Below, piece by piece: positions 5,862 through 31,000 of a stretch of DNA of 64,000 bases. The stretch spans positions 5,704,001-5,768,000 of the forward strand of contig NC_060020.1 in the NCBI RefSeq assembly GCF_021134715.1, read 5' to 3'. A program made the position numbers and the translations under genes. The DNA is from Daphnia pulex (lineage: Eukaryota > Arthropoda > Branchiopoda > Diplostraca > Daphniidae). Within the stretch, counting starts at the first letter, position 1, and every line of letters starts with the position of its first letter. The notes under the pieces are model-generated. The model saw nothing but the letters and a program-made list of their open reading frames with translations. It searched no databases and had not been told where the DNA came from.

Positions 5862-6536
5862 GATTTATAGAAGAAAAAACAAATCACGGTTTATGTATCG
5901 TGTTTCGCCCAAAAGGGTTGTGCTTCCTTCATTTTATCCATCACCTTATCTATTACCGTTTCTCAAAGGAGGAAAATGTCTTGTATTCAATTTTCTAAAA
6001 TTATGTCGTATTTACCTGGCCATTTGCACTCGTCCAGCAACGGAAATGTGGCGACGATTTTCAACGGGCAAGATGATTTTTGTTCATGCATGCCATGGGA
6101 GACTGGATGCCGCGTTAATTACCACTTTAATGGAAAGTCATATGACAGTTCTGAAAAATGCTCTGTTTGACCCTTCTTTTCCCTTGTTTCCCTTGTATAC
6201 CATTTTTGCGGTGAAGTTGTATTCCCCGTCACAGGAATAGTAAACTGTAAATGGCTCGAATAATCACTCGTTGTTTTTTCTTTTTACGGATTGTATGAAT
6301 TGAAATCAGGTAAAAAGGGACAAATGGGTAGAAATAAATCAAAACACGACATATTGGCAGACAGACAGAAAATTAAGAGATGAAAAGGCACTAAACGGTA
6401 GCCATTAATGAAATGAATCAAATTAAATACATAAATGAGTATACGAGTACTGACGGCACTGGCTGCGGACAGAATGTAAACTTCCGCACGAAGAACAAAA
6501 ACAAAAAAAAAGTAATTCTGAATCTTGATGGAAATA
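5862..6536. other. Convergent 3' regions of C2orf42 and the homeobox gene
   Basis: About 675 bp between two facing stop codons. It contains short open frames on both strands, but none has splice support or recognisable similarity. Best read as overlapping 3' UTR space; I see no unambiguous AATAAA on either strand. Confidence 0.5.
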
Positions 6537-7713
6537 TTATTTACTAAATTCGTCTGGGGATTCGCCCGTTGGACTGGTCTTGATTGGTTGTGGCGGGAAA
6601 AAGTCGCGGAAATTCGGTGCCGGTTCCTCGTGGAATCCGGTCGGCGTTGGGCCTTTGTTGAAACTCGAATTGAAGAATGGGTCGGCCGTGTAGCTGCTGA
6701 CAAAGTTGCTTCCGCTTCCAGGATTGTTATTGTTGTAATAGCCGGTGGCGTACGACGTGGCGCCCGTATTCCCGCTGCCGCTACAGGCCGTATTGCAATA
6801 GTCGTAAGTGGCGGCCGAAGCTGGCCAGTCTTGACTGTGACTGGCCGCATTGTAAGACGAGAAGGAAGTGAAAGGTGGGAGAAGCGAGCTAAAACCTCCG
6901 TTTCCATTTCCGTTGTGATGGAGTGTTGAAGAGGAAGAAGAGCAAGAAGAAGTGGCGCTGACCGCCACTGAATTGTTGGTTGCCGAGCTGCTGTTGTTGG
7001 CGTGATGGTGGACGTGGTGTGGCTGTTGCTGTTGGAATTTGCGTGGCGGTTCGCGCTTACGCCACTTGGCACGCCGGTTCTGGAACCAAACTTGAACGCG
7101 GGACTCGCTCAACTGCAAGCGCAAAGCAAGTTCTTCACGAGCAAAGACATCCGGATAGGGCGCTCTTTCGAAAGCCCTCTCCAGTTCTTCCAGCTGGTAG
7201 GGAGTAAAAGTGGTCCTGTAGATATAGAAATTTCTTTTTTTTTTAAACCAATAATCGCAATTTGAAAGAAAATTTAGTGTCTGATTTTAGAGACGAACCT
7301 CGTTTTCTTCTTCTTGGTAGCGCTGTTGTTAGCCGAGTCGTTTGCGCTCTTCTTGCTGTTTTTGTTCTCACTCTTTTTGCCGCTGGTAGTCGACGACACC
7401 GACGTCGCATTCAAATTCGTTTGCTGGGCGCACGAAGGCCATCCGGCCGAAGTTGGAGGTGCCGATGTGGAAGCCAAGTCGTGAACATCGTCGTGATGAA
7501 ATTCGTGCGGGAAATTGAGATCTCCGTGCTGGAAGCCCAACATTACCTAAGATAGGAAAGAAGAAGATTCACGTGAAAATGTCGTCGGGATAAAAAAGTA
7601 AAAAACAAAAGAGTATCTCGTTGAATCTATTCCAATTATACTTGAATCGAGTGAAAGTTTCCTCGGGTTTCAGCTTGCGCTTTGGCTACAACTTGCGTCG
7701 AATTGAGCGCCAT
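6537..7713 (-). CDS. repo: Paired-like homeobox transcription factor, probable repo (reversed polarity)
   Basis: Three coding exons on the minus strand: 7713-7642, 7546-7299, 7215-6537 (stop TAA), 332 residues. The homeodomain spans about residues 103-162, split by an intron after its Arg5. It contains [20 protein letters not shown] and [20 protein letters not shown], with Gln at position 50 and Asn51. The [13 protein letters not shown] helix 1-2 region is what I remember of Drosophila Repo, the glial differentiation factor, and separates it from Prop, Arx and Alx types. The flanks are low complexity: Ser/Asn/Lys before, and His, Gln, Ser, Gly and Tyr/Asn runs after. Fly Repo is roughly twice as long. 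The first exon (M-A-L-N-S-T-Q-V-V) was chosen because it lies about 90 bp downstream of a TATA box and joins in phase to [10 protein letters not shown]. Translation could alternatively begin at the ATG at 7543. Confidence 0.82.
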
Positions 7714-10800: not shown

Positions 10801-12700
10801 TGGACAAATTCAATTGTGACGCTTACATTGCGCAGCAAAAGCGGTTGCAGGGTTTCTCAAACCGAACCGCCGATTGCGTTATGCAAACAGTGTGGTTTTG
10901 TTAGCAGGGACTCGATTTCAGCGATTATACGAGGATGTTCCTGTGTGGCGTCAGGACCCTCTTGGTCTTAAAATTTTCGAATATTTCAGAATTTTCACCC
11001 ACAGACAAGGTTGTGAGTTAGAAAACCGGGCCTATAATCTGCATTCGTTCTACATATTATCAGCTATTTAATGAATCCTGACTGAATCAACAAAACGGCA
11101 AGAGAACAGTTCCAGTCAACCACATGGCTCAGGAATAATCGTACTCCGTATCACAATTTATAATCAACGCCACCACATAATCAAAAAGGAAGAAAAGAGA
11201 TAAATGTTTCCTACCTTATTAAAGCCTGGGAAATACAGCCAGGCATCACGCATTCATGCTCCATCCGCAGAAAAGTTAAATCAGCGGAATAGGAAAAAGG
11301 GGGTCCTCGTGAATACACCCACACACACATGGTGTACACGAGGACAGAGGAGAATTGAAGAAAGGGGAAGAAGAGATCCATAACTCGAACGATGTATCAG
11401 TGGTTTCTCCAATCAAATCTAAATAAAAAGTAAAAAATGGTTTACGAAAAAATATTTACAGAAATAACAAGTATGGGAAAGTTGAAAATCAAACAGTTGG
11501 CATAAAATTAAATTAATAATAAACGGGAGAATCTAAGATTTCCATATAAAACATTGTAATTATGCAAGTCATGAACCATTAAAATATCTAGCAGGCAACA
11601 GGAATAAAAGTAACGAAAATCATTTACCCAAACAATGATATGCTGAGATTGTTGCTGATGACATACCAGCACATGCAATACTCGCATGTCTCTTGGTCAT
11701 GATGGCTGGTTCAGGCCTCAAATATCTGCTATCACCTCAAACATCTAACATTCACAAATTTGGAACAGGTTTATAACCTTCTATTTAAGCTCCCATAATC
11801 ATGCTATTTGTATTCTTAGTTTAATTTACCTGCTGAACAGCATGAAGCTATTAAGCGATTCTATAAAGAGACGCGACCAGACTTGACACGATGACCACAT
11901 TTTTGTAAGTTATTTGCTGTGCTCATTTGTCGTGAATTCGCGATGTTTTTAAAAAAGCAGACGACCTTTTTCCCCTAATGAGCCATGTTTATTGATTAAG
12001 ATATCGATATAATTAAAAATCGACCCACTCTTCCCCTCTAAATCCAACCCACTGAAAACCTTAAAAGCGGTTTTGCGCTCGACATCCGCTGAACGGATCG
12101 GGATTATTTTCGTATAAATTAATAAGTCTCAGCAAATTACACTAAGCCCCCTACCGCAGTTAAGGTACAAGTTAAAATTTGCACGAAACCCGCAGATAAT
12201 TGCTTTATTTAGACCGAAACTCGCCACAATGACAACCTCCAGGATTATTTGTTTACCAAGAGTCACATTTTTTTTTAATGATGTCAACTCAACATGGTCA
12301 GACTGGTTGTATTAAATCACAACAGCAATCAAACAATTTAACAAAATGTAATAAGTATAACGGTGACCAAGCGCAGATAGGACTAGACATTGCTAAACAC
12401 TTGATAACGGACAAGTATAAAGGGAAATACAGATGGCGACATAAAAATTGTTTAAGATTAGAAAAATGTATTAATCAGCACGGCCAGCAAGCACGGCCGC
12501 TATTTAGATCCTTTGCCAAGTTCTAATTCTGGTCTCCTTTCGCTTGCATCGTTGCCAACGAACCCAAGCAGATTTTTTTTAAGTGTACAGAGGAGGAAAA
12601 GGTGTAGGTTTCCAGGATGAGGAGCAACAATGAAACTGAGGAACGGATATCTTGATCTTACACAGCTGCCGACGACAGAAATTTTGGGCCAACAACACTC
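7880..12700. other. Gene-poor interval upstream of the repo-like gene
   Basis: I find no multi-exon coding structure, rRNA, tRNA cloverleaf or transposase here. The open frames present (for example near 8000-8150, 9807-10118 and 10253-10492) lack splice support and recognisable motifs. The interval is the natural place for the enhancers of the homeobox gene. On reading I noticed one near match to the Gcm site (ATGCGGGA at about 9134; consensus ATRCGGGY) but no exact copy. Confidence 0.5.
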
Positions 12701-12702
12701 AG

Positions 12703-13045
12703 TTACTTCTTTCCTGTTTGTGAAAGTATATTGATCTCAATTCAAACTCTTTACAGATTTTTGGAAATTCGTTCTTACCCTTTCCGTCCTTCTTGTCTCC
12801 CTTTCCATCCTTCTTATCGCCTCCTTTCTGTTGTGTCAAGTTTTTAAAAGTAAACAATTCAATCAATTAGTTACGCAACAAATATTGAAAGCGTTTAATA
12901 TGGATGGCAATCAATACTTACATCTCCGCCTTTGCCACCTTTATTGTCACCGCCTGGAGATATAAATCAATATAAGAGACATTGTAAAGACGGTTTAGAT
13001 GATAGTCTTAACATTGAATTATTTCATACCTTTCTTGGGAGGCAT
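12703..13045 (-). CDS. Lysine/glycine-rich 35-residue peptide, four tiny exons
   Basis: Minus-strand exons 13045-13030, 12953-12922, 12827-12779 and 12713-12703 (coding parts 16, 32, 49 and 11 nt) join through GT-AG introns of 76, 94 and 65 bp into one frame ending in TAA. The peptide starts MPPKKGGDNKGG and has repeated K-K-D-G-K-G-D modules: 13 Lys, 12 Gly and 6 Asp out of 35. No signal peptide, hydrophobic segment or Cys. I recognise no family. Every junction closes in phase and the small exons keep the same composition, which argues for a real gene. Its divergent neighbour codes for another tiny Lys-rich peptide with a similar start, and both upstream regions share a CACGTG and the 10-mer GAACCAATCG. 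A disordered, cytosolic or nuclear, polyanion-binding role is a guess. Confidence 0.6.
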
Positions 13046-13232
13046 TGCTCTGAGTTTGTACTAAGTGCGAGTGGATGAAAACTGCTAGATTCCAGTCCAG
13101 TCTGGCGACGAATGAATACTCTCTGCGATTTTAACTGGAGCGGATTCACAACAAACTGTAGTCGTGGACATAGCCAAGGGGACGTCGTCGATATGTTACA
13201 CGAGCACGCACCATCGAGAGGAGGAGTCGAGT

Positions 13233-13238
13233 CACGTG
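13233..13238. promoter_or_regulatory. CACGTG E-box in palindromic GTCACGTGAC
   Basis: A perfect 10-bp palindrome at 13231-13240, about 190 bp upstream of the leftward micro-gene's ATG. It matches the CLEAR/USF/MITF-type E-box. A CCAAT box on the same strand lies at 13259-13268 within GAACCAATCG, an exact 10-mer also found upstream of the rightward micro-gene. Confidence 0.55.
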
Positions 13239-13269
13239 ACACAGTTCTCCGGATTTCCCGATTGGTTCC

Positions 13270-14630
13270 TCCGGCAGACGAGATCCAGATTGTTCGGGAC
13301 AAAACTGCGTGTTTAAACAGTTTGGCTGGATATTCAAAAATCGATCAATCAAAATCATTTTAGGCTGCACATCTAAATATTCCATGTGACTTGGACTTAA
13401 AATAATTTTTTGGTTAATGGCATATTCCTTTACCATCTATATGCAAAGCAATATGGATAAGGTACTTCAAATTTTAACTTACTAAAAGACAACGCAGCGG
13501 AGATGTTATCGGCCATTGAGCTGTTGCAGCTTAGAATAGGGGGGCCAGGCAAAAATTCGTATTTTTCTTTCTCGTGTTTGTAAATAGCTGCACGAGGTAC
13601 AAAATAAAACTGGTTTCAACTGGATCGCCAAGGATATATGCTTACGGGTGGGACTCTTGCTATTCTGGTTTGTAGGCGCGCGGGTATTGATCCGGCAGTG
13701 AATCGACAGACCGTAGACGGTAGCGAGTAGAACCCATCATATACTGGATGCGAAAGAGAGAAACGACCTAAACAATCAAAACATTAATCGAGGAGACATT
13801 TTGAAAACAACAACAACAACAAACAAAAAACGAAAACAATTAATACTTGCACCAGCAGGAAAACATTTCGATCAGGAAGAGATCTAATCTAATCAACAAC
13901 CGCTTTTGTTTTGGGAACAAAAGAGTGGACCGGCGTTGAAGTGGAACTGCGTCACATGAGTCCACAAGTCTATCAGCAGGTTACACGCAGAAGGTCATTT
14001 GACCTGTGTACACGGGTTGCACCCAGTGAAAGGAGGTAAAAACAAAACAAAAACATTCATGTGTAAAACTACGATTTACTACGTACTGTAAATTGTTCTT
14101 AAGCAGCGAGTCCTATGACACACCTGATGATAAAGAACCAGGATGCATCATGTGATATTCATGACATTACTCGGCTATAGTAATTATAAAAATGACGCCA
14201 ACCCCAAAGAATTTCAAAATATCCTTTTATCACTTGCTCTCCCATGTTGTTTATGAGAAGCACAGCCGTTGCTGGAAAAGCGAAATGCCGTTTCAGAAAA
14301 TGTATTTCTGAACTGAAATGGCCTCAAGGTTCAAACGTCTTTTAAACGAAGTTTTCTTTTAGAAAAATGCCCTCAAAACTTGAAAAATTGCCCTAATAAA
14401 CCGGTAATAACAAGTTCTTAAAATTTAAGGATCATCAGATTGCCTTACATCTCTTATTTAGCCCACCCGATCTATACAGTACATATAAGCACGGAAAACT
14501 GCAACCTGTTCAATTTGTGATATCAACCCCCAAGCAAATGCAAGGCGATCGAATGCGCAACACAAAGGAAAAAAAAAATAGTAAATAAGTGTCCAAAAAA
14601 ATATGTCGGTGTTAAATTCTGGGCGTCCTT
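13270..14630. other. Intergenic between the two divergent micro-genes
   Basis: AT-rich and largely unstructured. I see no coding exons. It presumably holds the upstream regulatory regions of both micro-genes. Confidence 0.4.
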
Positions 14631-14636
14631 TATAGC

Positions 14637-14654
14637 GAATGTTCTAGAACATTC
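14637..14654. promoter_or_regulatory. Heat-shock element, four perfect alternating units
   Basis: GAAtgTTCtaGAAcaTTC: four nGAAn pentamers in perfect head-to-head/tail-to-tail spacing, the ideal binding site for trimeric HSF. It lies about 80 bp upstream of a TATA box and about 185 bp upstream of the ATG at 14840, the usual geometry of arthropod heat-shock promoters. Confidence 0.88.
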
Positions 14655-14668
14655 TGGGGAAACATAGT

Positions 14669-14674
14669 CACGTG
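14669..14674. promoter_or_regulatory. CACGTG E-box
   Basis: A second CACGTG, here between the heat-shock element and the CCAAT box (GAACCAATCG, 14704-14713) of the rightward micro-gene. The same two motifs occur upstream of the leftward micro-gene, in the reverse order. Confidence 0.55.
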
Positions 14675-14732
14675 GTGTGATTTTACCCCGTGAGCGCCGG
14701 GACGAACCAATCGCACCGGGGCAAAATTCTAC

Positions 14733-14740
14733 TATATAAG
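14733..14740 (+). promoter_or_regulatory. TATA box of the heat-shock-type micro-gene
   Basis: TATATAAG at a normal distance from a start site expected near 14763-14770. Together with the heat-shock element and CCAAT box this is a complete, compact promoter. Confidence 0.75.
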
Positions 14741-14839
14741 GACCTACTGCCGGGGTCTGTCAACGCGCAGTTTCTTAGTACCAATCGCATCCCGTACTTA
14801 CAACCTTCAGTCAGACTCTCTCAAACTACTTCGTTCAAG

Positions 14840-15031
14840 ATGCCAAAGAAATCCGACAGCAAACCTAAAGCCGAAGTAAGTAATCTAGCGAATTAGTATG
14901 CTGTTTTTCTTTTGTGTTGTATGCAATAACTTACCAAGTGTTATTCCGTTTGTTTGAATCTGTAGAAGGTGACCGAGGAGAAAAAGGTCGAGAAGAAGGA
15001 GGATGCTAAGAAAGATAGCAAAAAGAAATAA
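14840..15031 (+). CDS. Lysine-rich 33-residue peptide under a heat-shock promoter
   Basis: Two exons, 14840-14875 and 14966-15031, separated by a 90-bp GTAAGT...TGTAG intron, code for 33 residues ending in three lysines and TAA. It starts MPKKSDSKPKAEKV and continues with K-K-V-E-K-K-E-D-A-K-K: 14 Lys, 5 Glu, 3 Asp and no hydrophobic core. The ATG is the first after the predicted start site and follows TTCAAG. The composition resembles a charged, intrinsically disordered chaperone- or dehydrin-like fragment, but I recognise no family. An AATAAA at about 15222 can end the transcript. The promoter predicts induction by heat or proteotoxic stress (inference). The divergent neighbour at 12703-13045 appears to be a related micro-gene. 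Confidence 0.72.
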
Positions 15032-16686
15032 TCCGGAAAAGATGCTTCCTTTGTCATGGCGGTACGTACAGCTGCTATGAAAATCGCAGCCGCTCATTTG
15101 TTCTTACCCTGGAGACATGCCATGCAAAACAGTCCTGAGGACATCATCGTACTCTTAATTTTTCCTAAAAATGAATTTGATTTTATACCGAAAATTATGT
15201 TTGAAATTGATCATTCCTCTTAATAAATGATTTAACCTTTCGGTAATGATGTGTTCTTGACTTCCTGGTTTTATTATCTTCCTTCGATAATTTCAAGCGG
15301 CGTTCAAAATAATCTTTCGAAATGAAATAAGTGAAATTAAATGATAACTATATAAAGTTAATTATTACCGCTACCTTATTCTTTAAATCATTAAAACGTT
15401 CTGGCTACTGCGCTCTCAAGTTCTTGCAACTCGCCACAAAAGATTCATAAGGGAACCTTTTTAACAAACCACACGAATGAATACTTAAAACTGATAAAAT
15501 AAATTTATAACTATCTAGTAGTTACCAGTTTGCTTGTCCATGAAAGCCTCCGGTCAGAGCTTGTTTTCGTAATAAGATAACGCAAAAGAAAAAAAAAATC
15601 GATGGGAATTAATTATCCTAAAATCAAAGATTAGTTACATTTTTAGATTAAGACGTAAATTACATATCAGGAGTTAGAAACTGAGTATCAATTATTGGTA
15701 ACATAGGTTATCATATTTCTTGCTTCTTGAGACTTTAAACATGAACCGAATGTTGGTAACACGAGTGCCCATGACATGGACGGATAACGTCTGGTCTCTA
15801 GGAAGTATAAAAATAGATGGCTAAATGATCTAGTTTTCTGCATTTAGGTTCGCAATTAATAGCTGGAGTGAGTCAATTACTCACCACCTACAGAAACACA
15901 ATGATCAACCTTTTACATTCATGGCTATTAGCCAACCAATCCGTCGCGGCATTGACACGCGACAACTGTATTGTTTTGTTCTTCGTACACGCGACATCTG
16001 CAAATCTCGAACATATCTGCTCTTTTTTACAACTGCAAATTAATAAGGGAAAAATAATATTGAATCTCATAATATCAGAAATTTAAGGGCGGTAGAGTTT
16101 CAGGGATTTAGCCAATTTGAAATGTGGGGCAGTGCAACACAGATGACACGACTTTTGACAAGATTTTGAAAAACGTCATTGTTAGGACATTGTCATCCTC
16201 AAAAACTTGGCCATAGGAACAAACACAATCCGTAAAGTTTTGTATATATGTATATATAATATAGATATATATATATGTACGTTTAGATATATATCTATGG
16301 CTCTGATAATTCTGTATTATTTGGACTTGGTTGGGTGGAATTGATTTGGATGGGAAAATGAATGGTACATTGGGAGGCATAGGGACTGGTGAGCAGATGT
16401 TGACATGGCAGGTCCAACTGGTAGCAGCCATCAACCGCATGATCGAACAGGTGATTTACTTTATCAACACTTACTGGATATGGTGGTGCGCTTTCTTGTA
16501 CACCACGATGTGAATACTGACTATGACTAGATGAAGAAACGGGGTAAAGATAGGAGCAGCAAGGCTCAACTTCCCTAAGCTCTGAGTTGAGCAGCAAGCT
16601 CCATTCCATTGGTCACAAATCAGGGAATCTGTTAGTTTGGAACATTAAAAAAAAACCAAAAAACAAGTAGATTTTAAGTTTCAACG
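15032..16686. other. Intergenic, AT-rich
   Basis: Contains the 3' UTR of the micro-gene, an AT-rich stretch, and an open frame at 16609-16295 (minus) that I could not connect to any gene. ANKRD13C family proteins normally end where the stop at 16687 lies, so this frame is not an obvious missing C-terminal exon. Confidence 0.4.
16244..16300. repeat. (TA)-rich simple repeat
   Basis: Alternating TATATA with interruptions (TATATGTATATATAATATAG and similar). No further meaning seen. Confidence 0.7.
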
Positions 16687-18581
16687 TTATGTCTTTGCAG
16701 AATTGTCATACCTTCCGGGGTTCTCGGTATAATCCTTGGGGATTTGAAACAAAGAATCTGGCATATTGTTGCGAAATTCAAAGTCTTGAAAATTAACTCG
16801 TGTTGTTATGGTCGGTAAAATTGGAATGTCAACTTTTACGGGAAAACCGGGCGGTAGTTTCATTTCAACGAATTCACGGAGCTTGCTAAAATGTTTGACA
16901 GGCGCTACAACTTCCAACACATCTAACAGCATCGCTTTGGATAACGGAAAATCTTGGCACTTGAAAATGTAAGAATGAAAATATTTCCTGAGTGGTAAGT
17001 ACATTTGGTTATCAAGAAAAAAGGAGATGCGTTAATACCATGGCAACAGTAGCGCGGAATGTTTTAGACACATCTTTGCATATGAGTTGTCTACCCAAAT
17101 TTGGAGGGTGACTACAATTGATGTAATCATTCCAGCTGAGGATCGTTTTAATTGGCGCAGGTAAAGACCCTCTGCGTATGGGTTCGCCGTTGCTGGTCTC
17201 AGTCAAACTCGAACTAGAACCTTTCGTCAGGGTCTCCATCAAAGCCTTATTTTTGCGAAGGTCTTCTTGAGTAAGGTGTTCTCTCCTCTTGCGGGATTCA
17301 AAAACCAAACCTCCAATAGAAAAGAATTCAGCCTGATATGGACCCACCATTTCCTGAACGAAAAAGTATACAATTTGAGAATGTAGGTGCTTTAAGGAAG
17401 AAAACACTTATCGTTACCGTTTTGTCAGCACGAAAAAAGAAACCAGTTTGAGCGCGGTTGAACGTAATGAAACGTGTCGACATTTGAACAGCTACTATAT
17501 CGTTACTCATTAGGATATCGACTTCGTCTTCTATCTCACTCTCCGATTCCTACTTAGACAAAACCAAAATTTAATTGTTTACTGTAAAATTGGAAAACGC
17601 ATTTCAAAACTTTACCTGATACCGAATTTGTTGATAAACTTTCTGTTTGTTATCTAGTATAAAAAGTGACTGTTGTCGTTCGGCTTCTCCATTAAATACA
17701 ATACTTATGTCCCCACGCTCCCAATGCATGTCAGTAAAATCAACTAAAGTTGTATCAACCCGTATTTTTGAACCTTTCTTATGGATGCGACAAATATCAG
17801 ACGGCAGTATGCGTGATACCAATGGTACTACATCACAAATAAATAAAAATCTTACTTCCAATTAAATGGTCATTTCTAAATTGGAATGAAACCTACCCCA
17901 GCTTTGAAAATCCCATTTGAGTTGTAAGTAAAAGTCACCCATTTGCTTTAATGCCTGGATCAGTTTTGGTCTCCTTTCTTCCAACTGTTCTTTACTTTGT
18001 TGCTTAAGTTTCCTCAATAGCAACAGAACTAGATCAATAAGAACTTGTTAGACAAATTATTGTGATCACATAATTTCAGAAAAACTAACTTGTTTGTCGA
18101 TCACCGTAGCTGATAGCTTCAGCGAGTGGATTCCAGCCAAGTCCATTCTTAATTTTAACCTGAGCATTGTGGGCTAGCAGCAAATGTATGCATTCTGCAA
18201 AAGAAATGTCAAAATAAGTATAAATTCCTTTTTTCAAATTTTCTATTGTAAGGACTTGCCTTTGTGACCCAACATAACTGCCAAATGAAGAACTGTGTTC
18301 CCTACAACAGAAAATTAATATTTTATTTATCGAAACGATATTTAAAAAAAAAAGCAAAATTAATCGAGCCATGTTCACGGAGACAGGATGCCGCTCAAAA
18401 CAATAAAATTTTATTGTATAAAAAAAAAGAAAAAATATAGTTGTAAGTTAGTGAAATAAAAGTCACCATGTTTATCCTTTTGGTTAATATCTGTAGTACG
18501 TAAAAGAGAAGACAATTGACGAATATCGTTACGATAAACACACGAGTGTAGCGGGAATAATGAACTTGAATCATCGGCCAT
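16687..18581 (-). CDS. ANKRD13C: ANKRD13C homologue, ankyrin-repeat receptor-biogenesis factor
   Basis: Eight minus-strand exons: 18581-18467, 18301-18260, 18194-18090, 18028-17897, 17827-17616, 17549-17418, 17353-17039, 16959-16687; 441 residues. The N-terminus has ankyrin repeats (K-H-G-N-T-V-L-H-L-A-V-M-L-G-H-K, then GWNPLAEAISYGDRQ). The GPCR-chaperone domain follows, with ALKQMGDFYLQLKWDFQSW, LVSRILPSD, DTTLVDFTDMHWERGD, FNRAQTGFFFRADKT, ESRKRREHLTQEDLRKNKA and KLPPGFPVKVDIPILPTIT. It ends after E-N-P-G-R-Y, as human ANKRD13C does after D-P-S-R-F, so the paralogues' ubiquitin-interacting tail is absent as expected. The family regulates biogenesis and exit of G-protein-coupled receptors at the ER membrane. 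The second intron uses a GC donor. About 100 residues shorter than the human protein, all at the N-terminus. Shares an upstream region with TRAIP. Confidence 0.95.
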
Positions 18582-22100: not shown

Positions 22101-23413
22101 ATGACTACTACTGTTTCAGAACCCATCATGTCTGGAGCAGCTTCTAGGTAAAACATTTAATATACGTGTGGTGAAAAACAACTTTTAAAAGACTAAAATA
22201 CTGACAAGGATACTCAATCTTTTTTTTCCATGTTACAGTATTTGATGTCAGATTTAGACAGACCTTAATAATTAGGTGTTTTACACAAATGTAATTTATC
22301 TTAAATATTTGTAGAAGGAAACTGCTTCAGGCCAGTGTGAGTTGTTTGTGTAGTGAGGCAGGCTTCAGTGCAGTAGATGAATTGTCATTGGAGACCCTTA
22401 CCGAGATGATGCAGAGCTGTAAGCATTTCTATCTATCAAAGTAATCATATTTGTTAAAAACCTTATTTATTTATTTTCTTTCTACAGTTCTGACTGAACT
22501 TGGTCATAGTAGCCGTCTTTACTGTGAATTATCTGCAAGAGTGGTATGGGTTATCTAAATTCTTCTCTGAGTTATAGGGTATAATCAGTAGTCAAGTTAT
22601 ATGTTTTAATTTTAGGAACCTGTTGTAGGAGATGTTGTTATGGCCTTGGTTTCAATGGGAATTAAGCACAACTCTTTGGAATCATATGCTCAAAGAGCAA
22701 GAAGGCTAGTTTTACCAACTCCTACTCAAGCTGTTGCAACCAAACAAATTGGAATTTTACAAACTGGTCAAAAGAGACCACATCCAAGTCATATCCCAGA
22801 TCATTTGCCAGCATTTCCAGATTCACATGCATATGTTCAAACACCAGTATGTTGTTTTCCATATTTGTCATACATTATATTTTTTAATAATTATTGTTTT
22901 TTAAGACTCACAAACAACCTATTACGGACTACGAAACTATTCGAGAAAAGGCATCCTGTCAAAAGCGAGATGTGGAGAGAGCACTGACGCGCTTTGTCGC
23001 TAAAACAGGGGAAACGCAGAGTTTCTTTTTGGTCGAAGATTTGACGCATTATCCCCGTAAGTAGAGGACGAAAAAAATAGTAATGTATACCTTTTTCATT
23101 TAAATATATTCTTTGTGTCCTAGTTATTGCATGTAAGCCAATGGATAAACCGTTTTTGTCCGCCCTTCTCCCTCGCGATCAAACTTTTGAAGAAGACGAG
23201 GCAGCCGTCCACATGCAAAAGCAAGAAGAAGCAAATGCTGAAGCCATTAAAGCCGCCAAGTTGGATCAGGAGAAAGAGAACAATGAAATGATGGATAACC
23301 TTGGACCTAATGGCTCACTGATGGAAATGTCAAATTCAGAACCATTTATCATGGAAAATCCATTCATCAGACCAGTTAAAATGCCTTTTTCAAAGAAAAA
23401 GAGCTCCCCATAA
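22101..23413 (+). CDS. TAF8: TFIID subunit TAF8
   Basis: Six exons, 22101-22147, 22315-22418, 22488-22543, 22616-22846, 22906-23056 and 23124-23413, give 292 residues (human 310). The N-terminal histone fold is recognisable in R-R-K-L-L-Q-A-S-V-S, A-G-F-S-A-V-D-E-L-S-L-E-T-L-T-E-M-M-Q-S and Y-C-E-L-S-A-R. The TAF8 C-terminal domain follows with QKRPHPSHIPDHLPAFPDSH, T-D-Y-E-T-I-R-E-K-A and DVERALTRFVAKTGETQSFF, all strongly conserved in the family. It ends with N-P-F-I-R-P-V-K-M-P-F-S-K-K-K, where the human protein has its nuclear signal. TAF8 pairs with TAF10 and brings TAF2 into TFIID. The 3' end overlaps the presumed 3' end of mRpL55: the stop codons are 61 bp apart. Confidence 0.95.
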
Positions 23414-28040: not shown

Positions 28041-31000
28041 TTACATGTCACCAAAGATTCCGGCGAATGTTTTGCGCAGATTCTTCATCGTGTCCTCGCC
28101 GTCGTCGGTACCTCCGCCAGATCCTTCCTGGGCTTGTTGCGATGAACTGCGAGTGAAGAAGGAACGGGCCAATGATCCGGCAGTGACGGGTGTCCCGTCC
28201 TCGGTCCCGCGTCGAGTGAGAAATGGATTGCCTCCGCCCAAGACGTCACGAGACGATTGTTGTTGCAACGACGTCGGCTGAGAAGCGGAGCCAACCGATC
28301 CGGTATCATCACCAGCCAGGGCTGGCGGAATTGCAGAGCTGCTTCGTTCCATATCCGCCGGGGATTCCGGTCGACTTCCGCTTGTAATCGAATGACGTGA
28401 TTGGGCGTTCGGCATAGACGCCGGACCGGCGCTCGGACCGGCAGGCATCCCTGGTGGCCGACATTGAGTCTGCACATTGTTTTCAGAAAGATAAATTATA
28501 GAAAGTGATGATGAGTATTTTTAACAAAATAATAATAGCCGTGCCATTTATCACTTGTGTTACGAACACGGAAACCTAAATTTGGACTTTCTTGGAATTC
28601 ACGTTGCGCAAACGAACACGTGATTGCGCCATGGGCCACAATATGTTGATCTAGACATTTTTGCCAGTCTTTCTCTTTCTTTTCTTTTATCCAGCTATCA
28701 GAACTTCCGTTTTTTGGTCCCACCCTTTTCAGACCGTCACTCAATAATGGAGTGCATCGATTCTTCGTTTTTAAAAACAAATTGTTCAAAGAAGAGTAAG
28801 AATAAAATGAATAAAAATCAAAAGAAAAAAAGGAAAAAAATTAACAATATCCTGTTGGCGCCTTATGGAAATCTCGCCCGCTCCCATCGGGAGAAAAGGC
28901 AAAGAGAGAAAAAGAAAAGAAAAAATGGTAAAACATGACTCACGTTCATGCGGTGGAGAACGAGCTCCGAGATGAGACGGCGGTCCTCTTCTTGCGAGTC
29001 TCCGAGGAGCGGCAGGGCGCAGTCGTTGAGCTCCATGATGATCTCGCGTCCGTCGCGGGCCACCAGGACCTCCAGGGCGCAGAGATCGAGACCCCCGAAC
29101 TGGGCTGCGACGGCCTCGATCCATCCGCGGTACTTGTCCGTCATGGGTGTCTGCTCAAGCATGGCCGAGCCCAGGTTGGTCTTCCAGTTGCCCGAAATCG
29201 ACTTGCGCCTATTTGACACACAGAAATGATTCATCAAAAGTCGCACATGCATTCCCCAAAATGAGTCACCATATAATGACCATCTGATGTATGCATTCGC
29301 TCATTTTTATTTTATTTTTTTTGTCGGCCCTCACAACTATTCCAACTATTTCTATTCCCGTTCTAGCACACACACACACGCACTGCCGTATCGCATCCGG
29401 CTGCTGGATTTAGCCGCGGTCCTTATCGCCGTAGGACACCAGCACCTGACCGTCCGTCAGTCCGTGTGACAAAATGCGGCCAAAGAGTTGCCGAATCGTC
29501 TCTATAAAAGTTCCTCGAGTTCACTCTCTATCGGTTAGGAGCAGGGGGGGATAAAAAACATGACGACAGATATGCTAATGCGTCAAGAGTCGCTGATGAC
29601 TCGGCAACTATTTAGAGATCAGATTTTTAAGAGAAACTGACTCAATTATGGAGTTTCGTGTGACGTCAGCCCCAAGAATTCCGGCACTTTTGATTACTTG
29701 ACATACCGATCCCACCCCTCCACTCCTGTGACTCCTGGAGACACACGCGCACGTTGTCATATCTCACTAGTTTAATAAGGAATGTCCCGTATACGTTGTC
29801 TATCAAACAAATCGATAAACGGGTAAATTGAATTAAGCAACTTACATAAAGGCTTTGTAATAGTTGCCGATCTTCTGGATGTGGATGTCGAACTTGGAGT
29901 CCACGTAAGGCTCCACGGTACTGTGTTGTACAAAGAAGAAAATGACGTAAGACACCATACGGTTGAGAGAGAAAGAAAGACAAAATAAACGGGAATCCCG
30001 CGAACGTTTTCTTGTTACCAGTAAGAATTGGAAACTGCGACGACGGATGCGGCGTCTTGGAAATCCAACGGCGTTTCCACTTTGAGTTTGCCGAGTCCGC
30101 CGTGAGCGTGGCCGATCTTGAGGACGGCCGGCAGCCGCGGAGCCGACATCTATCATCATCAACAATTACGCCAGAATGTAGTTAACGCTCTCTACGGATG
30201 TCTACTACTACCGACTACTACTACGGTATACTACTACACCACCACCGGGTGTGTCTGCTGGACTCTATAGAATATATATGACGGAGGCGCACCTCGTGAT
30301 GGGATTTAAACACAATGCGCCTATCTCTTGGCGCAAGGGAGCAGTGCCGCGCATCAACCGAGCGGGAATCTTTTTTTGATTCTATTAAAACGCGAGCGGC
30401 AAACAAGAGGAAGAAGAATATCAACGACGACACTGACTCATGGGCCGATATCGTGCGTGTGGTTATCTCTTGTCGGCCGGACAGACTGTAGTACAGTGTA
30501 CATGCCGTTTGGTATATTTGATGGCGTACAACGTCATCACTTTCTCGTTCCGGTTTACGCACTTGGATGAAAAGGCATTTGCAATCTCTTGCGACCGACT
30601 TGTCGGGATCCGCTACCACATTCAACCGTTGTCCTCCATCTTTTATTCATTCAAAATCGTTTGGTTGCTAACAACTAGACAAGTTGAAGATTTTCTACGG
30701 GGTCTGTATAGGGCTCTCCCTCTTTTCTCTCTCTCTCTCATTCCGTTTTGGATTTCTTCTTCCTTTCTTTTTTTATTTCGTTCGTTTTGATCTTTTCTCA
30801 ATGACACGACTTTTTTTCTTCTTCTTCTTCTCCCGCGGCCGCCTTCCACCCAACCTAACATGGTCACACACGCAGACCCAGCTGCACATAGAAACTCGGC
30901 TCATTTGCATGTGAATCCAAAATCCAGCGGATGTGTTTATATATACTACTATACAGCAACACCACCATGGACCGCACAAATATCGTCGTCTGTGGCCGGC

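Follow-up and report, generated by a model that had tools for sequence, protein, structure and literature searches.

The window analysed here, the whole 64,000-nucleotide stretch of Daphnia pulex DNA at C4:5704001-5768000, contains two divergent, spliced open frames for lysine-rich peptides, and one of them lies downstream of a perfect four-pentamer heat shock element (HSE). The pair is best explained overall as two independent micropeptide genes side by side (probability about 0.55), of which the right gene, judged by its promoter sequence, is likely to be under heat control. Genome-wide searches covered 133,188,837 bases on 13 contigs, designated by C-numbers, and positions given without a contig are those of the window.

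The left gene lies on the minus strand and is assembled from four coding exons of 16, 32, 49 and 11 nt, which together encode 35 amino acids. Its exons, read from the sequence, and the motifs found around it by scanning are as follows:

13030..13045, minus strand, coding exon 1, 16 nt, MPPKK and the first base of Gly
12922..12953, minus strand, coding exon 2, 32 nt
12779..12827, minus strand, coding exon 3, 49 nt
12703..12713, minus strand, coding exon 4, 11 nt including the stop TAA
13233..13238, minus strand, upstream E-box CACGTG within the palindrome GTCACGTGAC
13259..13268, minus strand, upstream CCAAT box GAACCAATCG
12204..12209, minus strand, first AATAAA 3′ of the gene (ATTAAA at 12279)

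A letter-by-letter check found GT-AG at every one of the three introns (76, 94 and 65 nt). The predicted peptide contains 13 Lys (37%), 12 Gly and 6 Asp, for a net charge of +7. Third codon positions are 51% GC, and the coding sequence can also be read without stops in one of its alternative frames.

The right gene lies on the plus strand and has two coding exons of 36 and 66 nt, separated by a 90-nt intron, that encode 33 amino acids. Its parts, with exons and intron read from the sequence, motifs taken from the motif scan and the downstream frame from an ORF scan, are:

14637..14654, plus strand, HSE GAATGTTCTAGAACATTC, four perfect alternating pentamer cores, 18-bp palindrome
14669..14674, plus strand, E-box CACGTG in the context AGTCACGTGGTG
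14704..14713, plus strand, CCAAT box GAACCAATCG, NF-Y-like
14733..14740, plus strand, TATA box TATATAAG
14840..14875, plus strand, coding exon 1, 12 codons, MPKKSDSKPKAE
14876..14965, plus strand, intron, 90 nt, GTAAGT...TGTAG
14966..15031, plus strand, coding exon 2 with the stop TAA, KVTEEKKVEKKEDAKKDSKKK
15056..15223, plus strand, 55-codon ORF in the presumed 3′ UTR, its stop overlapping AATAAA
15222..15227, plus strand, AATAAA, presumed poly(A) signal, 191 nt past the stop

From the spacing of these elements, transcription would perhaps start near 14762. The predicted peptide contains 14 Lys (42%), 5 Glu and 3 Asp, with a net charge of +6. Third codon positions are 61% GC and second positions 24%, and stops interrupt both alternative frames. 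The 55-codon ORF downstream is probably there by chance. This anatomy bears out the initial annotation, which had described two divergent genes for peptides of 35 and 33 amino acids with about 40% lysine, four exons of 11–49 coding nucleotides for the left gene, and promoter elements within 110 bp for the right gene; the distance from the first HSE base to the last TATA base is 104 bp. With 1,795 bp between the two start codons, the pair has no common compact bidirectional promoter.

Four neighbouring genes recognised with Pfam can be used as synteny anchors for the locus:

6537-7286, minus strand, homeodomain protein gene
17012-17407, minus strand, ANKRD13-like gene, just under the Pfam cut-off
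22616-22987, plus strand, gene for a TAF8 C-terminus
28863-29300, minus strand, synapsin gene

The case for two genes is supported by scans of the window against shuffled sequence and against other loci of the same genome. In the main scan, both strands were searched for ATG-to-stop chains of up to four exons that encode 25–45 residues with at least 37% lysine, using YAG acceptors, introns of 55–100 nt and donors that agree with the consensus at 3 or more of its 5 positions, and dropping chains with five lysines in a row. With these thresholds, which were chosen after the genes had been seen, the window yielded two chains, exactly the left and right genes. The same scan yielded none in 200 first-order Markov shuffles of the window and none in 176,221 bases of other loci, a total that counts overlapping loci and excludes seven (six with these genes and one of pure telomere repeat). 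A looser scan (28% lysine, up to five exons, 22–60 residues, introns of 50–130 nt, lysine runs allowed) returned five chains in the window. One is the left gene, two are versions of the right gene (one of them with additional exons upstream), and the remaining two are 23-mers, of which the one at 16439 is 30% lysine. One hundred shuffles gave 12 such chains, the best with 35% lysine, or about 0.12 per shuffled window, and the other loci gave one. When acceptors were required to have at least 7 pyrimidines in 15 positions, the right gene alone was retained (0 in 10 shuffles), which indicates that the left-gene acceptors are pyrimidine-poor. Judged from sequence, the pair is very probably real; taken singly, we hold with good confidence that the right gene is real and protein-coding, and the left gene is also probably real. 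The second 23-mer of the looser scan, a single-exon ORF of 23 codons on the plus strand (18388-18459), is 39% lysine including a run of five. Its length and this run exclude it from the main scan, and it is probably an A-rich stretch.

Neither gene has a recognised relative in the searches made. At the DNA level, no second copy of either was found in the genome by a search that skips simple-repeat words, and an exon-by-exon protein-level search, which has low reach for peptides this short, found no paralogue in the genome. The open-licence PMC literature yielded no description of either gene, and the main text of a Daphnia heat transcriptome study, in the portion available, has no mention of “HSE”, “lysine” or “small protein” (PMC5963186). 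In a protein collection from public genomes and metagenomes, the left peptide drew 16 candidates, of which none reached E 10, and the right peptide drew zero. Pfam gave no match for the left peptide and nothing above cut-off for the right peptide, SERF included; an apicomplexan microprotein family that came up for the right peptide (E 0.99, far below cut-off) was taken as chance. Rfam had no match in the window, and a tRNA search found none. The earlier claim that the peptides belong to no described family fits these results, which come from collections not known to include animal micropeptides.

The missing relatives and second copies, the very short lengths and the open alternative frame of the left gene would also fit recent de novo ORFs in transcribed DNA, neither peptide being functional. 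This is improbable, as two chains side by side contrast with none in 200 shuffles, and the right ORF is flanked by an HSE, a TATA box and a poly(A) signal.

The closest likeness found for the left peptide is a protein encoded on C2 of the same genome, which we take from its sequence to be PIN4-like. This protein starts MPPKKAAAAG and continues with KSKGAGGGGGDDDKGKDKKGGTGS after an early intron. The left peptide has in common with the PIN4 (parvulin 14) tail the MPPKK start, a tail rich in Lys, Gly and Asp, and the early intron, whereas it lacks the PPIase (Rotamase) domain and its DNA sequence is different. One could imagine, from the start and early intron shared with the PIN4-like gene, that N-terminal exons of PIN4, or of another nucleolar protein like it, broke off or were duplicated to form the left gene, which would persist as a localisation peptide in its own right or as a remnant in decay. 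Such an origin is quite unlikely: there is no DNA similarity elsewhere in the genome (simple-repeat words skipped), and the first-exon pattern of the left gene, donor included, has a single genomic occurrence, at the left gene itself. A search for the parvulin domain gave two places, one on C1 and one on C2, with none on C4, and for this reason we also rejected the idea that a longer parvulin gene begins with the left gene. The likeness to PIN4 is compositional.

The promoter of the right gene resembles those of heat-shock genes in its arrangement. Its four perfect alternating nGAAn pentamers, where three would be enough for an HSF-regulated gene, lie a short way upstream of the core promoter, and the perfect HSE ends 79 bp before TATATAAG. 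The offset is identical in an Hsp70 gene on C2, whose four-pentamer HSE, with one mismatch, ends 79 bp ahead of TATATAG and has a CCAAT box close by on its upstream side. In an Hsp90 gene on C10, the HSE likewise consists of four pentamers with one mismatch, and its distance to TATAAG is 87 bp, compared with 81 bp in the right gene. Both chaperone genes appear from their sequences to be of cytosolic type. Because the geometry of the right gene equals that of one Hsp70 gene and is close to that of one Hsp90 gene in the same genome, a heat-shock-type promoter is supported, and we consider the right gene quite probably controlled by heat shock factor (HSF) on this sequence evidence. The differences are that the right-gene HSE is perfect, while those of the two chaperone genes have one mismatch each when compared by sequence, and that the right gene encodes a 33-aa peptide in place of a chaperone. 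HSF and the heat induction of Hsp70 have been described in Daphnia (PMC4789591, in the excerpt available). Directly adjoining the right-gene HSE, at 14628-14636 on the minus strand, lies CTATAAAGG, and given this position on the opposite strand, the HSE might also fire leftward.

Across the genome, the perfect four-pentamer pattern GAANNTTCNNGAANNTTC occurs 124 times, compared with 18 for the reversed pattern. In combination with a TATA box in right-gene geometry, it occurs six times versus once for the reversed pattern, and at the other five of these places no heat-shock gene was recognised by eye. Individual loci were scored as having an HSE if they contained three pentamers without mismatch or four with a single mismatch. 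Scored in this way, the window contains four HSEs, one of them the perfect four-pentamer site. No HSE of this kind was found in five of the six upstream stretches of Hsp70-class genes, in which the promoter is not surely inside every stretch, in any of the nine HSP20 loci, or in five of the eight HSP90 loci.

Many of the perfect HSEs in the genome, among the matches listed, sit in arrays of repeats towards the ends of chromosomes. One repeat, at the beginning of C3 and with a spacing of 4,704 bp, carries nine perfect alternating HSF pentamers in both copies read (C3:1294-1336 and 5998-6040), with further sites among the matches listed up to C3:29328. The first copy has TATATAA 105 bp past the HSE, and the repeat also carries tRNA-like matches and long open frames. 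From these features, it is possible that this is a heat-inducible chromosome-end repeat or mobile element. A second array lies near the end of C2 (C2:13321056-13338518 and C2:13342585-13352584), where all 10 sites examined have six perfect HSF pentamers. C2 terminates in 10 kb of TTAGG repeats, and just inside these, at C2:13340705, is an inverted HSE like that of C3. In addition, HSP90 fragments with equal scores and end points are dispersed on C2, C3, C5, C6, C7, C8, C9, C10 and C11, covering model positions 250-378 in four places and about 408-510 in seven. They look as if they had been captured and spread by mobile elements.

The upstream regions of both genes carry CACGTG and the 10-mer GAACCAATCG, which we take to fit the NF-Y consensus. 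We asked how often such sharing arises by drawing two 300-bp stretches at random from the window 5,000 times, where draws less than 300 bp apart were skipped yet counted in n. A common 10-mer was present in 1,536 of the 5,000 pairs, and a shared 10-mer was rejected on this basis as evidence of co-regulation in its own right. CACGTG was present in both members of nine pairs in 5,000, and CACGTG together with a common 10-mer in three, which makes their joint occurrence unusual relative to random stretches, as distinct from promoters. The elements noted initially as common to the two genes are indeed there, while sharing the 10-mer is ordinary. Their order also differs: on the left the CCAAT box is upstream of the E-box, and on the right the E-box is upstream of the CCAAT box. 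In right-gene order, the E-box and 10-mer occur once in the genome, at this locus.

The left gene has neither GAAnnTTC nor TTCnnGAA in the 300 bp upstream. With an E-box and a CCAAT box only, it is probably not under HSF, as far as its upstream sequence indicates. With no HSF site at the left gene, the earlier proposal of a two-gene, stress-induced system of disordered peptides is unsupported.

The peptides can be further characterised by composition. A KEKE motif is a stretch of more than 12 amino acids with more than 60% Lys and Glu/Asp and with no Trp, Tyr, Phe or Pro. The right peptide contains a stretch of this type from K10 to K33, 24 amino acids that are 75% Lys, Glu and Asp and free of Trp, Tyr, Phe and Pro. 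The left peptide has 28 amino acids at 61%, but these are interrupted by glycines. By the charge-hydropathy rule, which uses composition only, as opposed to the IUPred predictions of the Hero protein study discussed below, both peptides are classed as disordered.

From these features we infer that the genes are expressed and translated, that heat induces the right one and, step by step, how the peptides would work. Proteotoxic stress would lead to binding of the four-pentamer element of the right gene by an HSF trimer. HSF, a CCAAT-box factor, an E-box factor and the TATA box would then drive a short two-exon mRNA that ends soon past AATAAA at 15222. Given this textbook heat-shock control region, the tiny peptide is probably made under heat stress. 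Translation would give a peptide of 33 amino acids with 14 Lys, 8 Asp/Glu and a net charge of +6, most of it the 24-aa KEKE-type stretch. The peptide would most likely stay unstructured and, being small, charged and free to diffuse, bind as a ligand to an acidic partner, for which a chaperone, the proteasome cap, a nucleic acid or a histone chaperone are candidates. The left gene would give a 35-aa peptide of Lys, Gly and Asp that resembles the basic PIN4 tail. The charged-ligand mechanism is a tentative proposal, and its more specific form, in which an HSF-driven free 33-aa KEKE peptide binds, as a soluble charged ligand, to the machinery of chaperones and proteasome, is less likely still.

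Lists of heat-shock genes are drawn mostly from annotated proteins and rarely extend below about 50–100 amino acids. The combination of a perfect four-pentamer HSF promoter with a spliced ORF for 33 amino acids points to micropeptides as possible further targets of HSF. If true, this would be a class of heat-shock product far below the small heat shock proteins in size and easily missed by annotation. The idea can be tested directly in Daphnia, which is a harmless model organism, and it raises the question of what such short charged peptides do in proteostasis. The interest of the locus is as a testable case of an HSF-driven micropeptide, as opposed to a demonstrated new system.

A known system of similar layout, and the source of the main rival explanation, is hsr-omega of Drosophila, which is heat-inducible and has two exons, one intron and a divergent ORF of 23–27 codons (PMC9865238, in part). 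In broad outline the right gene is built alike, from two exons with a very short ORF, and its transcript could be a heat-inducible RNA of this type, in which the RNA or the act of translation matters and the peptide does not. The two nevertheless differ. In hsr-omega, the short ORF is inside exon 1 and tandem repeats follow downstream, whereas the right ORF spans both exons, in frame across the intron and with a strongly biased composition, and no tandem repeats lie downstream of it; the only repeat in 11000-17000 is AT-rich, at 16243. The right RNA also folds no better than shuffled sequences (z 0.65). Moreover, hsr-omega itself appears in a list of RNAs whose ORFs are robustly translated (PMC9622821, partial text). 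We therefore consider an RNA gene of this kind unlikely.

Hero proteins, which include SERF2 and C19orf53, offer a comparison at the level of the product. They are hydrophilic, very highly charged and predicted to be disordered (PMC7067378, in the sections available), and by composition both peptides described here are likewise. It is conceivable that the right peptide is a miniature Hero-type polymer, induced by heat through its HSF-type promoter, that shields clients by charge and disorder; Lys/Arg charge is required for the activity of Hero7 and Hero11 according to the same partial text (PMC7067378). Length speaks against this. At 33 and 35 amino acids, the peptides fall short of the chain length for polymer-like shielding, and they are shorter than the 42-aa Hero constructs that failed on TDP-43. 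None of the scrambled 42-aa sequences, whatever their composition, prevented TDP-43 aggregation, while those of 100 amino acids did, and disordered fragments of 35–45 amino acids are cited as weakly protective (PMC7067378, same sections). Since 42-aa scrambles are inactive, a Hero-like shield is doubtful at 33–35 amino acids, and for the right peptide we give it a low probability. The inactivity at 42 amino acids and activity at 100 suggest that the 33-mer, probably too short for a polymer-like shield, is more probably a binding ligand than a polymer. The KEKE motif offers a further comparison. In the example of RBM10, this motif is a stretch of a large protein (PMC8508765, in the excerpt available, which cites Realini et al. 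1994 for KEKE motifs), whereas in the right gene it makes up most of a free peptide.
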